Of a stretch of 64,000 nt of DNA, positions 11,812 through 16,361 are shown piece by piece. Below the pieces are notes generated by a model. The model ran no database searches. It was not told the origin of the DNA and saw only the letters and a list, made by a program, of their open reading frames with translations. A program made the translations under genes and the position numbers. The DNA is taken from the NCBI RefSeq assembly GCF_014197015.1, contig NZ_JACIET010000001.1, forward strand, positions 682,001-746,000, read 5' to 3'. How positions within the stretch are numbered: position 1 is the first letter of the stretch; each line of letters opens with the position of its first letter. The DNA comes from Niveibacterium umoris. GTDB taxonomy: Bacteria > Pseudomonadota > Gammaproteobacteria > Burkholderiales > Rhodocyclaceae.

Positions 11812-12888
11812 TCAGCCGCGTTGGCCCGCTTCGTACCAGGGCTTGCTGCTGTTGACGATGCGCACCACCAGCAACATCACCGGCACTTCGATCAGCACCC
11901 CGACCACCGTTGCCAGTGCAGCGCCGGACTGGAAGCCGAACAGGCTGATCGCCGCCGCCACTGCCAGTTCGAAGAAATTCGACGCACCAATCAGTGCCGA
12001 CGGACAGGCGACGTTATGTTTCTCACCGGCCTGGCGATTGAGCCAGTAGGCCAGCGCCGAGTTGAAGAAGACCTGGATCAGGATCGGCACGGCGAGTAGG
12101 CCGATCACCAGCGGCTGGCGAATGATCGCTTCACCCTGGAAGGCGAACAGCAGCACCAGGGTCGCGAGCAGCGCCGCGATCGACCAGGGGCCGATCTTCT
12201 CCATTGCTGCGTCGAACGCTGCTTGCCCCTTGGCAAGCAGCGCACGGCGCCAGAGCTGCGCGAGGATCACCGGGATCACGATGTAGAGCACCACCGACGT
12301 GACCAGCGTGGCCCACGGCACCGTGATCGCCGAGATGCCTAGCAGCAGGCCGACCAGCGGCGCAAACGCGAAGACCATGATCGTGTCGTTGAGCGCGACC
12401 TGCGACAGGGTGAATAGCGGGTCGCCATTGGTCAGGCGGCTCCACACGAAGACCATCGCGGTGCACGGCGCTGCCGCCAGCAGGATCAGCCCCGCGATGT
12501 AGCTGTCGATCTGGTCGGCCGGCAATAGCGGCGCGAACAGGTGGCGCACAAAGACCCAGCCGAGCAAGGCCATCGAAAACGGTTTGACCAGCCAGTTCAC
12601 AAACAGCGTGACGCCGATGCCGCGCACATGCTGGCGCACTTCATGCAGCGCGCCGAAATCGACCTTCACCAGCATCGGGATGATCATCACCCAGATCAGC
12701 ACGCCGACGGGCAGGTTGACCTGCGCGACTTCCATTGCGCCGATGGCCCGGAAAAGATCCGGGAAAACCTGTCCCAATCCGATGCCAACGACGATGCAGA
12801 GAAAGACCCATACGGTCAGAAACCGTTCGAACAGACTCATCGGCGCGCCGGCGGATTGCTTGATGGCGACTTCACATTGCACGGACAT
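11812..12888 (-). CDS. acr3: Arsenite efflux transporter Acr3
   Basis: This is an inner-membrane arsenite carrier of the ACR3/BART family, 358 aa with about ten membrane segments. The family-typical MSVQCEV N-terminus is present, as is LAAAPCTAMVFVWS, which contains the conserved cysteine needed for As(III) transport in characterised homologues. Its ATG follows the arsA stop by one base, so translation is probably coupled and the protein may be energised by ArsA. Confidence 0.96.
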   Translation of the reverse strand: MSVQCEVAIKQSAGAPMSLFERFLTVWVFLCIVVGIGLGQVFPDLFRAIGAMEVAQVNLPVGVLIWVMIIPMLVKVDFGALHEVRQHVRGIGVTLFVNWLVKPFSMALLGWVFVRHLFAPLLPADQIDSYIAGLILLAAAPCTAMVFVWSRLTNGDPLFTLSQVALNDTIMVFAFAPLVGLLLGISAITVPWATLVTSVVLYIVIPVILAQLWRRALLAKGQAAFDAAMEKIGPWSIAALLATLVLLFAFQGEAIIRQPLVIGLLAVPILIQVFFNSALAYWLNRQAGEKHNVACPSALIGASNFFELAVAAAISLFGFQSGAALATVVGVLIEVPVMLLVVRIVNSSKPWYEAGQRG

Positions 12889-12889
12889 C

Positions 12890-14659
12890 TCAGGCTTTCG
12901 GGATAACGGGTTGGAGGTGGCTCAGGGTGTCCAGGCGCTCGACGCCGATGGGTTCGTCCTGCTGCAGCGGTACGACGGCATAGCGTTTCGCGTGCTGACG
13001 TGCGACGGCTTCGATATCACGCATCTCGTTGCTGGCACGCAGCCGCAGCAGGCGCGATTGCGGACGCGCTGCGGCGACGCTGTTGTTGACGACCCAGGCC
13101 CACGGCTCGATGCCGGCTCGTCGCAAATCGGACTGCAGGTTGGCGGCTTCGAGGACCGGCGTCGTTTCGGCCAGTGTCACGATCAGCACCTTGGTCTGTG
13201 TCGGGTCCTGCAACTGCATCATCGGTGTGGTGAAGTGCATGCCGGGCGCCATCTGGCGGCTGACCTCGCGGTGGTACGCGCCGGTGGCATCCAGCAGCAG
13301 CAAGGTGTGGCCGGTCGGCGCGGTGTCCATCACCACGAACTTGCGGCCGGCCTCGCGGATCACACGCGAGAAGGCCTGGAACACCGCGATTTCTTCGGTG
13401 CACGGCGAACGCAGGTCCTCTTCGAGCAGCGCTCGGCCGACGTCATCGAGTTGCGCGCCCTTTGTCGTGAGGACCTGCTGGCGATAGCGCTCGGTTTCGA
13501 CATGCGGGTCGATGCGGCTGACGCTGAGGTTTTCGAGGACGCCGGTCAGCGTGTCTTCGAGGTGGGCTGCCGGGTCGGAGGTCGTCAGGTGTACAGGCAG
13601 TCCGCGCTTGGCCAGTGAAACGGCGATGGCGGCTGCGAGCGTGGTCTTGCCGACGCCGCCCTTGCCCATCAGCATCACCAGACCGTGCTTGTCTGCGGCG
13701 ATTGCATCAAGAAGCGGGCCCAGGGCCGGGGCGTCGAAGTCTTCAAGTTCTGCGGGCGCTGCAATCGCTGGCGTGTCGCCCTCAAGCAATGCGCGCAATG
13801 CGGGGACGCCAACGAGATTGAAGGGTTTCAGCGGCAAGGTGTCGCGCGGCAGCGCGCACAAGGCCTCGGGCATTGAGGCGATGGCGTCGGCTTCGCGCAG
13901 CGCAATGGCACGAGCCAGCGGATCTTGCGGGCATTCGCTCTCCGGCAGTACGCCGTTGATCACCAGATGCTGATGGCCAAGTCCGACACTGCTGAGTTCC
14001 TGTTGCGTGCGGGCCACCTCGCGCAAGGTCGCGGCCTGTGCGCGGGCAACGAGCACCAGGCGCGTCTGCCTGGGGTCGGCGAGTGCATCCACCGCGGCCT
14101 TGTACTGTGTGCGTTGCTTTTCCAGCCCGGCGAGCGGGCCCAGGCAGGAGGCGTCGCCCTTGCCGGCGTCGAGAAAGCTGCTCCACGCGCCGGGCAACTG
14201 CAAGAGGCGGATCGTGTGTCCGGTGGGCGCCGTATCGAAAATGATGTGATCGAAGCGGGCGGTCTCGGTCGAGTTGGTCAGCAGCCCGGTGAATTCGTCG
14301 AAGGCGGCGATCTCGGTGGTGCAGGCTCCGGAGAGTTGCTCCTCGATTCCGCGCACCACCGCGTCGGGCAGCACGCCGCGCACCGGTCCGACGATGCGGT
14401 CGCGGTAGGCGCGCGCGGCGGCCTGAGGGTCGATCTCCAGCGCGGCGAGGCCCGGCACCGCGGCGACGTCGACAATCCGGTTGCCGATTTCAAGCCCGAA
14501 TACCTGACCGACGTTCGATGCCGGGTCGGTGCTCACCAGCAAAACGTGCCGCCCGCTTTCGGCAAGGTCGATTGCCGTGGCGCAGGCAATGGATGTCTTG
14601 CCGACGCCGCCTTTGCCGGTGAAGAACAGGTAGTGCGGCGGTTGCTGGAGAAAGTTCAT
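12890..14659 (-). CDS. arsA: Arsenical pump-driving ATPase ArsA
   Basis: This is a cytoplasmic two-domain ATPase of 589 aa (E. coli R773 ArsA is 583). It has two Walker A loops of the form GKGGVGKT, near residues 15-22 and 332-339, each followed by a DTAPTGHT signature. It couples ATP hydrolysis to arsenite extrusion and receives As(III) from the ArsD chaperone. I chose the start at 14659, directly before FLQQPPHYLFFTGKGG; the open frame continues upstream into arsD but with no motif. Order: arsR-arsC-arsD fusion-arsA-acr3. Confidence 0.97.
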   Translation of the reverse strand: MNFLQQPPHYLFFTGKGGVGKTSIACATAIDLAESGRHVLLVSTDPASNVGQVFGLEIGNRIVDVAAVPGLAALEIDPQAAARAYRDRIVGPVRGVLPDAVVRGIEEQLSGACTTEIAAFDEFTGLLTNSTETARFDHIIFDTAPTGHTIRLLQLPGAWSSFLDAGKGDASCLGPLAGLEKQRTQYKAAVDALADPRQTRLVLVARAQAATLREVARTQQELSSVGLGHQHLVINGVLPESECPQDPLARAIALREADAIASMPEALCALPRDTLPLKPFNLVGVPALRALLEGDTPAIAAPAELEDFDAPALGPLLDAIAADKHGLVMLMGKGGVGKTTLAAAIAVSLAKRGLPVHLTTSDPAAHLEDTLTGVLENLSVSRIDPHVETERYRQQVLTTKGAQLDDVGRALLEEDLRSPCTEEIAVFQAFSRVIREAGRKFVVMDTAPTGHTLLLLDATGAYHREVSRQMAPGMHFTTPMMQLQDPTQTKVLIVTLAETTPVLEAANLQSDLRRAGIEPWAWVVNNSVAAARPQSRLLRLRASNEMRDIEAVARQHAKRYAVVPLQQDEPIGVERLDTLSHLQPVIPKA

Positions 14660-14678: not shown

Positions 14679-15491
14679 TCAGCAACAACGGCTGCCGCTG
14701 CAACAGGGCTTGGCGGCGACCGCCTCGCCCTGCAGACCAAGCCAGCGGGTAAGTTCCGCCCGATTCGGGTAGCGGCCGGCGAGTGCAACTTCGCCATCGA
14801 GCAGAATCAGCGGCAGGGCTTCGGCACCCGAGCGCTCAAGGAATCCTTTGACGACGGCGTTTTCTGCAAAGGCCATCGGCTGCTGCGCGAGGTTGAAGCG
14901 TTCAATCGACGCCCCTTGCGCAGTGGCCCACGCCACATCCGCCGAGAAGCTCACGAGTGCCTGGTCGACGTCGGTGCCACATACGCCGGTGCTGCAACAC
15001 AGGGCAGGGTCATAGACTTTCAGGGTCTTCATGCTTGTTCCTTTCGTTGCCTCGAAGCACTGCGGATACAGGGCTTCGAGCGCTGCTCGTTGCTCGGTCT
15101 TGATGTTGATCGTCGGGCGGATCGATCTTGCGCTGGCTTCGGCCTCGGCAAAGCTCGGGCAGATACCCAGTTCCAGCAATACGCCTGCGGCGACGGTGCC
15201 GGTTCGACCTTTGCCTCCACCGCAGTGGAATGCGACTTTCTTGCCGCTTCGGTAAGCCGCGACAACAGCCTGAATCGCGTCGCCGAAGAGTTTGTCCTGC
15301 GGTTCGGCGTTGTTGTCGCCAAGCGGGATGCGTTGCCATTCGACCGCTGGCGCCTGTGCCGCCAGGCCTGTGGATTCCTCACGCAGGTCGACCACGACTT
15401 CTACCGCTTCGTTGTCGATCATCGCCTGTACGTCGCTGGCAGCACCCAAGTAGATGCGGTCTGCGACGAGTGCCTGATAGGACTTTTCCAT
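14679..15491 (-). CDS. arsD: Fusion: CX5R dual-specificity-type phosphatase domain + ArsD arsenic metallochaperone
   Basis: This is one uninterrupted 270-aa frame. Residues 1-153 resemble a dual-specificity/PTP phosphatase: VVVDLRE near 32-38, then the P-loop FHCGGGKGRTG with catalytic C90 and R96. Residues 154-270 are a complete ArsD, with C12-C13-C18 in own numbering (ALCCSTGVCG) and the C-terminal CCSGSRCC pairs. ArsD carries As(III) to ArsA. An ATG at 15032 opens exactly the ArsD part and has AAAGGA eight bases upstream, so free ArsD may also be made. GAGGAG precedes the long start at 15491. The phosphatase part could act on arsenate or on a phosphoprotein; its substrate is unknown. Confidence 0.88.
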   Translation of the reverse strand: MEKSYQALVADRIYLGAASDVQAMIDNEAVEVVVDLREESTGLAAQAPAVEWQRIPLGDNNAEPQDKLFGDAIQAVVAAYRSGKKVAFHCGGGKGRTGTVAAGVLLELGICPSFAEAEASARSIRPTINIKTEQRAALEALYPQCFEATKGTSMKTLKVYDPALCCSTGVCGTDVDQALVSFSADVAWATAQGASIERFNLAQQPMAFAENAVVKGFLERSGAEALPLILLDGEVALAGRYPNRAELTRWLGLQGEAVAAKPCCSGSRCC

Positions 15492-15507
15492 GACGGGCTC
15501 CTCGCGT

Positions 15508-15987
15508 TCAGGGCAGCAGCGTACCGATACGGTCGAGCTCGGCCTTGAGGCGCGCGCGGTCGTTCGTGAGTTCGGCAAGCGGCAGCGCGAGGAAGGCTTC
15601 GATGCGGGCGCGCAGGATGCGGTAGGCGGTCATGAACGCGGCGTCTATTTCTTCGTCGGTTCCGGTGGCGTGAGCCGGGTCTTCAACCCCCCAGTGCGCG
15701 CGCAGCACCGGGCCGATATAGGCCGGGCAGGTTTCGCTGGCGGCATTGCCGCACACGCTCAGCACGATGTCGGGTGTTGCCGGCAGGTTCTCCCACGATT
15801 TGCTGTGGTAGCCCTCCGTGTCGATGCCTTCGCGCGCGAGCAACGCAAGTGAGCGCGGATGCACATAGCCGGTCGGCTTGCTACCGGCGCTCATCGCACG
15901 CCAGCCCGCGGGCGCGAGGTGGTTGAAGGTCGCCTCGCCAAGGATCGAGCGACAGGAGTTGCCGGTGCACAGGAAGAGAACGTTCAT
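15508..15987 (-). CDS. arsC: Arsenate reductase ArsC, LMW-phosphatase fold (probably thioredoxin-coupled)
   Basis: This enzyme reduces arsenate to arsenite in the cytoplasm (159 aa). The anion loop CTGNSCRS gives catalytic C7 and R13. A second cysteine pair in SVCGNAASETCP fits the three-cysteine relay of thioredoxin-linked ArsC enzymes. The ATG overlaps the arsR stop (ATGA), and the stop lies 16 nt before the phosphatase-ArsD fusion. The frame stays open upstream through arsR, but the family N-terminus begins exactly at 15987. Confidence 0.95.
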   Translation of the reverse strand: MNVLFLCTGNSCRSILGEATFNHLAPAGWRAMSAGSKPTGYVHPRSLALLAREGIDTEGYHSKSWENLPATPDIVLSVCGNAASETCPAYIGPVLRAHWGVEDPAHATGTDEEIDAAFMTAYRILRARIEAFLALPLAELTNDRARLKAELDRIGTLLP

Positions 15988-16361
15988 GATTTTTTCGCGG
16001 TTCGGGAAGATGAAAGGGGCGGCAGCACTTCGGGGGCACAACACGATGCCTCGCGCAATTCGGCGCATTGCTCGGGATGCCCGGCACAACACTCTTCGGT
16101 GAGGTAAGCGACCAGATCGAGCATCAGCGGCAGGTTTGCGCGGTAACGCTGGTAGCGGCCCTCCTGTTCGACGGTTGCGAGGCCTGACTGCACCAGCGCC
16201 TTCAGGTGGAAGGATGTATTGGTGGGCGGCAGTTCGAGCGCCTGGGCGATTTCGCTTGAAACCATGCCCTCGTGACCTTTGCGCACAAGCAGGCGAAAGG
16301 CGTCGAGGCGGATGCCGGAGGCGAGCGATTCGAAGAGCGTGGTAGCGGTAGTGCGGTCCAT
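15984..16361 (-). CDS. arsR: Arsenic-responsive repressor ArsR
   Basis: This is an ArsR/SmtB winged-helix repressor of 125 aa (ALELPPTNTSFHLKALVQSGLA as the recognition region, about residues 43-64). The C-terminal tail has several cysteines (ECCAGHPEQC, SCCAPE) that could bind As(III), as in the ArsR subgroup with C-terminal thiols. It is first in the ars operon, overlaps arsC by ATGA, and would repress from the direct repeats that abut its start codon. Confidence 0.94.
   Translation of the reverse strand: MDRTTATTLFESLASGIRLDAFRLLVRKGHEGMVSSEIAQALELPPTNTSFHLKALVQSGLATVEQEGRYQRYRANLPLMLDLVAYLTEECCAGHPEQCAELREASCCAPEVLPPLSSSRTAKKS

Follow-up and report, generated by a model that had tools for sequence, protein, structure and literature searches.

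An arsenic resistance cluster of Niveibacterium umoris with a phosphatase and ArsD joined in one open reading frame and a probable retained arsD start inside it

The window analysed in this work, a stretch of 64,000 nt from the genome of Niveibacterium umoris (contig NZ_JACIET010000001.1, positions 682,001 to 746,000), carries on its minus strand an arsenic resistance cluster in the order arsR-like, arsC-like, fusion ORF, arsA and acr3. The arsR-like regulator (15984..16361) matched HTH_20 and HTH_5 above their cut-offs and scored 48.5 bits with NF033788, below the cut-off of 55. The arsC-like gene (15508..15987) was assigned to the low-molecular-weight (LMW) phosphatase family by PF01451, above cut-off. 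Its best NCBIfam model was arsC_pI258_fam with 75.1 bits, under the cut-off of 174.3, and its homologue in a Comamonas plasmid operon carries the annotation arsenate reductase ArsC. The arsA ATPase gene (12890..14659; TIGR04291, 903.4 bits) and the acr3 arsenite efflux transporter gene (11812..12888; TIGR00832, 397.3 bits) complete the cluster, all five genes being read from the minus strand.

The fusion ORF (14679..15491) runs unbroken from the ATG at 15491 to the stop at 14679 and encodes 270 amino acids. Residues 1-153 constitute a phosphatase domain with a linker and residues 154-270 a complete ArsD; the Pfam families Tc-R-P, PTP-SAK and DSPc exceeded their gathering cut-offs inside residues 13-136, and ArsD was matched over residues 154-270 (E 1.6e-45). 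The Shine-Dalgarno sequence of the phosphatase start, GAGGAG (15498..15503, minus strand, -8.1 kcal/mol), lies directly past the arsC stop. A genome search in which all 18 candidates were scored found a single place for the phosphatase of this family and a single ArsD, both being the fusion ORF; ArsA was found in one place at E 1e-10, and ArsC likewise in one. The proposal of the initial annotation, that one frame joins a CX5R phosphatase to a full ArsD with its metal-binding cysteines, was thus borne out by translation, by Pfam and NCBIfam and by the positions of the cysteines.

The ArsD part (14679..15032, minus strand, 117 aa, PF06953) can also be translated alone from an ATG at 15032. It scored 129.6 bits with the NCBIfam model chaperon_ArsD (NF033727) against a cut-off of 90. 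The cysteines Cys12, Cys13 and Cys18 (14979..14999, minus strand), to which the excerpted literature assigns the As(III) site, are intact, and so are the C-terminal cysteine pairs 110/111 and 116/117 (14682..14705, minus strand).

The phosphatase domain with its linker (15033..15491, minus strand) is of the dual-specificity type, passing the curated Pfam cut-offs of PF22785, PF22784, PF00782, PF14566 and PF13350, and the 14 other phosphatases in the alignment showed 42-68 % identity to it. The kinship with LMW or Cdc25 phosphatases assumed earlier was not upheld, the domain being a dual-specificity (DSP)-type protein tyrosine phosphatase according to Pfam and the LMW-family protein being encoded by the separate arsC-like gene. 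Neither PF01451 nor an ArsC model matched the domain at E 0.01, PF01451 sitting on the neighbouring arsC-like gene, and a Cdc25/Acr2 (rhodanese) identity was rejected as no rhodanese-like Pfam family matched at the same threshold.

Relatives of the phosphatase were collected by scanning bacterial and archaeal species genomes with the phosphatase alignment, and the best 80 of 233 relatives were used. To these were added eight chosen plasmid records and nine relatives from genome searches with the fusion as the query, the last being biased toward loci with arsD. The 97 relatives and the window gave 98 rows with 92 distinct sequences. Copies of the window (L001 and L002) and phosphatase matches of at most 75 bits or spanning at most 120 residues were excluded, among them the weak match L031 and a truncated second copy in L035.

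Genes of the ars type were present in the fetched flank of 94 of the 97 relatives (77 of 80 among the best 80 of 233), and an ArsC homologue was found at 91 of the 97 loci; the remaining three flanks (L060, L103 and L105) gave no ars gene with the six queries used. As judged from this gene context, the phosphatase belongs among the regular genes of ars operons. The families represented include Gallionellaceae, Chromobacteriaceae, Neisseriaceae, Burkholderiaceae, Sterolibacteriaceae, Lysobacteraceae and Paenibacillaceae, and plasmid carriers include Comamonas, Enterobacteriaceae, Pseudomonas and Bacillales; no relative was found on viral contigs. The fusion by itself is an event of a single lineage, and its wider interest is that it draws attention to a phosphatase accompanying ars genes in Pseudomonadota and Bacillota.

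Several loci deviate in their arrangement. L006, L043 and L046 have the phosphatase gene outside the ars operon and transcribed divergently from it, and in L034 and L035, plasmids of Enterobacter and Citrobacter, it stands tail to tail with a gene set that includes a molybdopterin oxidoreductase and a DsrO-like gene. The truncated second phosphatase of L035 follows arsC.

The closest sampled phosphatase was 69-70 % identical to that of the window among the best 80 of 233 relatives. In a tree of 45 of the 98 rows, rooted at the midpoint for drawing and with bootstrap values that had not settled, the window phosphatase fell within a 30-row group of Pseudomonadota (97/91) on a separate branch, 0.34 long; support for its exact place was weak and no closer well-supported group was seen. 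Within the host family the phosphatase was found in 2 of 395 genomes, the one of the window and G446, in which the genes are separate. The search of six other congeners found it in none, one of them (G302) having ArsD without the phosphatase. This rarity in the family and the absence from the congeners suggest that the phosphatase was acquired by transfer.

The P-loop (H89-R96, HCGGGKGR; 15204..15227, minus strand) is present as HCX5R(S/T), HCGGGKGRTG corresponding to residues 89-98, and a residue count in the translation agrees with the earlier numbering of C90 and R96. We take Cys90 to be the nucleophile and Arg96 the phosphate-binding residue. H89, C90, G93, R96, T97 and G98 were found in all 98 aligned rows, an invariance that is partly by construction since 80 of the rows were retrieved with P-loop patterns, and that holds also in the 17 rows taken without such selection. 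Column 59 (D59; 15315..15317, minus strand) contains D in 97 rows and E in the remaining one and corresponds in the alignment to the D of 'PIPD' in ShufPTP; Asp59, which precedes the P-loop, is presumably the general acid in catalysis. His89-Cys90-X5-Arg96 together with Asp59 would fit ordinary phosphocysteine catalysis. Cys90 is the sole invariant cysteine. The next most common, in column 43 (15363..15365, minus strand), is present in 85 of the 98 rows, including all 18 in which arsD is the next gene, and a cysteine occupies column 111 in 32 rows. Leu at column 43 is found in the window alone, the 12 other rows without Cys having S, G, A, V, I or N; among the Bacillales plasmid rows, L038-L040 lack this cysteine and L036 and L037 have it. 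The loss of Cys43 hints that the window phosphatase may have changed in function.

A phosphatase gene followed by arsD on the same strand was found at 18 loci, and at every one of them a stop codon intervenes. These loci encode 14 distinct phosphatases, several of them near-identical, so that they are not independent observations. The gap between the two genes is 16-17 nt in seven loci and 32-35 nt in six; three further loci have gaps of 25, 12 and 465 nt, and in L007 and L052 the genes overlap by 4 nt. Searches with the fusion as the query in 300, 7, 249, 369 and 398 genomes (overlapping draws, many genomes being only partly scored; threshold E 1e-15 in the last) gave no other stop-free two-domain frame. 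The nearest case, G105, covered the full query with a stop inside it. Among 2142 matched plasmid records, two had one place covering at least 80 % of the query, and both were annotated as separate genes. Separate genes at this junction had been named by the initial annotation as evidence against its interpretation, and they are what all 18 homologues of the same order have. Comparison with these relatives shows the fusion to be derived, two separate genes being the state in all of them, and so far unique, without this amounting to proof of an error.

Two loci have unusual arsD genes. In a Gallionellaceae metagenome-assembled genome (L047:308-916) ArsD continues in frame into a carboxymuconolactone-decarboxylase (CMD) segment with more cysteines, which is another extension or fusion of ArsD. 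In Paludibacterium (L058:4469-4876) a frameshift seems to affect the ArsD frame downstream of the phosphatase, with an odd tail and ArsD matched in two pieces.

The two domains of the window are joined by the nine-residue linker CFEATKGTS (15033..15059, minus strand), which corresponds to the phosphatase tail of the relatives and their intergenic gap: the relatives mostly terminate a few codons past a conserved L-Y-P, and the window continues through the linker into ArsD. An open upstream frame by itself is weak proof of fusion since such frames are common at a GC content of 64 %, 13 of the 77 ArsD places outside the window having at least 40 open codons upstream. None of these 13 shared its frame with a phosphatase gene, whereas the upstream open frame in the window is the phosphatase's own, with homology reaching the phosphatase C-terminus. 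The other long-open arsD loci were rejected as fusions, the upstream ars gene, where matched, lying in a different frame; this applies also to L127 and L129 (from G460 and G345), in which arsC precedes arsD. The most serious alternative is a sequence error, in which the true genes would be separate or overlapping by a few bases and the fusion would be an artefact, arising from a sequencing or assembly slip within the junction of about 30 nt. It draws on the separate genes at all 18 comparable loci, on the 4-nt overlaps in L007 and L052, where being off by a few bases in length could pass for a fusion, and on the occurrence of the fusion in one genome and one assembly only. The assembly is nevertheless of good quality (17 contigs, 99.49 % complete, 0.09 % contamination), the longest homopolymer at the junction is 3, and the frame is kept through the conserved end of the phosphatase and from residue 1 of ArsD onward, which makes an error improbable, at something like one chance in eight.

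The reading we favour, with a probability of roughly 0.7, is that of an arsR-arsC-phosphatase-arsD-arsA-acr3 cluster in which the phosphatase stop was lost and the gap was in phase, so that translation reads through into arsD and each domain keeps its usual role. The loss of the stop and a short gap in phase would be sufficient to carry translation through the nine-residue linker. ArsD would then continue to carry As(III) to ArsA, and the phosphatase would dephosphorylate its substrate via a phosphocysteine on Cys90, with Arg96 holding the phosphate and Asp59 acting as the acid. It would aid the cell under arsenate stress, not as an arsenate reductase, the reductase being supplied by the arsC gene; that the arsC-like gene scores under the curated ArsC cut-off is a point against this reading. 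A fixed 1:1 supply of the two domains and their co-localization may be all that the fusion provides. On balance, two ordinary ars proteins have most likely been fused in this one lineage, probably giving a bifunctional protein and free ArsD.

The start for free ArsD is preceded at a distance of 6 nt by AAAGGA (15039..15044, minus strand), and the ATG at 15032 lies at the position where the relatives begin their separate arsD gene. Pairing of AAAGGA with the anti-Shine-Dalgarno sequence was calculated at -5.6 kcal/mol, which ranked second among the nine in-frame start-like codons, behind the ORF's own start, and third when all 34 start-like codons of the ORF are counted, a single TTG in another frame being stronger (-7.3 kcal/mol). 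The arsD genes of the separate-gene relatives had values from -4.9 to -9.3 kcal/mol (9 of 18 computed). Sequence and duplex energy thus agree with the earlier suggestion that this second ATG is a credible start opening ArsD alone. Since a stop separates the genes in all 18 relatives, it would be the ancestral arsD start, which outlasted the loss of the stop upstream. It is most simply seen as a relic, as the lost stop and the in-phase gap suffice for the ORF while the old start and its ribosome site persist, and it is probably a relic still working rather than a newly evolved device. The locus probably yields two products, with translation from ATG 15491 giving the fusion and from ATG 15032 free ArsD; their calculated masses are 28.5 and 12.3 kDa. 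The locus presents a clean case in which a lost stop codon joins adjacent operon genes and the downstream start is retained.

The function first proposed for the fused domain was different, namely an extra arsenate reductase handing As(III) directly to ArsD. Phosphatase folds have been turned into arsenate reductases elsewhere, which lends this idea some background, as does the frequency of ars neighbours at the phosphatase loci. The LMW-PTP type of reductase (ArsC pI258/thioredoxin) needs conserved second and third redox cysteines, for which the phosphatase family has no invariant counterparts, and the commonest second cysteine is replaced by Leu43 in the window. A reductase with one cysteine, working via glutathione or glutaredoxin, is possible in principle. 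The same operon already holds an arsC-like gene, as do most loci of the family an ArsC homologue, and at the 18 loci of the same gene order the supposed donor and acceptor of As(III) are separate proteins. The dual-specificity phosphatase orf8 of the Bacillus CDB3 ars1 operon bears on the question from both sides: it conferred arsenate resistance in E. coli, yet it was no substitute for arsC, and its authors' verdict was that it is not an arsenate reductase (Zheng et al. 2013, as given in excerpts of PMC4562236). The work on CDB3 made use of E. coli K-12 AW3110, a laboratory strain with ars deleted. With a phosphatase that is normally free in ars clusters containing ArsC, an orf8 that is no substitute for arsC and Cys90 as the only invariant cysteine, the extra-reductase proposal is very unlikely, and the odds for direct channelling of As(III) from phosphatase to ArsD are low. 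What stands of the initial interpretation is the fusion and the credible second start for free ArsD. A phosphatase gated by arsenic, switched on or off when the fused ArsD binds As(III), appears only marginally less remote. In its favour, a thiol enzyme is here covalently attached to a domain that binds As(III), and the loss of Cys43 in the single fused member suggests altered thiol chemistry; the retained start for free ArsD is an indirect point against it. Equally speculative is a two-form protein in which the fusion would be an As-responsive phosphatase, its Cys90 controlled by As(III) captured by ArsD or by ArsD/ArsA docking and its missing Cys43 replaced by ArsD thiols or by Cys145 of the linker, while free ArsD would feed ArsA. 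A natural fusion of this kind suggests that the phosphatase and ArsD may act at the same step.

The CDB3 ars1 operon is described in PMC5481582, the content of Bhat et al. 2011 and Zheng et al. 2013 being taken here from excerpts of PMC5481582 and PMC4562236. According to these excerpts, orf8 resembles the window phosphatase in its DSP annotation and its membership of an ars operon and differs in having a gene to itself, which follows a HesB-like gene and is the last of the operon. It is linked to the window family by synteny, through Bacillales plasmid gene sets with a homologous DSP, rather than by sequence; those Bacillales plasmid phosphatases that were listed show about 45-49 % identity to that of the window. 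A closer counterpart is found on the plasmid of Comamonas sp. C11 (L033), which shares the order arsR-arsC-phosphatase-arsD-arsA and has a phosphatase 68 % identical to the one studied here, which is a free-standing protein with the annotation 'dual specificity protein phosphatase family protein', encoded ahead of arsD. Unlike the window, it has two genes with a stop and a 17-nt gap, and Cys43 is kept.

Fusions of ars proteins known from the excerpts of PMC6205960 comprise ArsR-ArsC, Acr3-ArsC, AqpS-ArsC and ArsN-ArsC/ArsD. They resemble the window ORF in joining proteins of ars operons, including ArsD to another enzyme; the window ORF differs in that the partner is a DSP-type phosphatase located N-terminal to ArsD. 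The open-access literature searched, part of it as excerpts, gave neither a phosphatase-ArsD fusion nor a report on the substrate of the ars-linked phosphatase family. As far as these sources go, fusions of ars proteins, ArsN-ArsD among them, and a DSP as a separate ars-operon gene were already known, and the join of the phosphatase to ArsD is new. On a plasmid of Lysinibacillus capsici (L178) the last base of trxB is the first base of the ars phosphatase, which there lies upstream of a run of arsR, an arsenic transporter gene, arsC, arsD, arsA and HesB.
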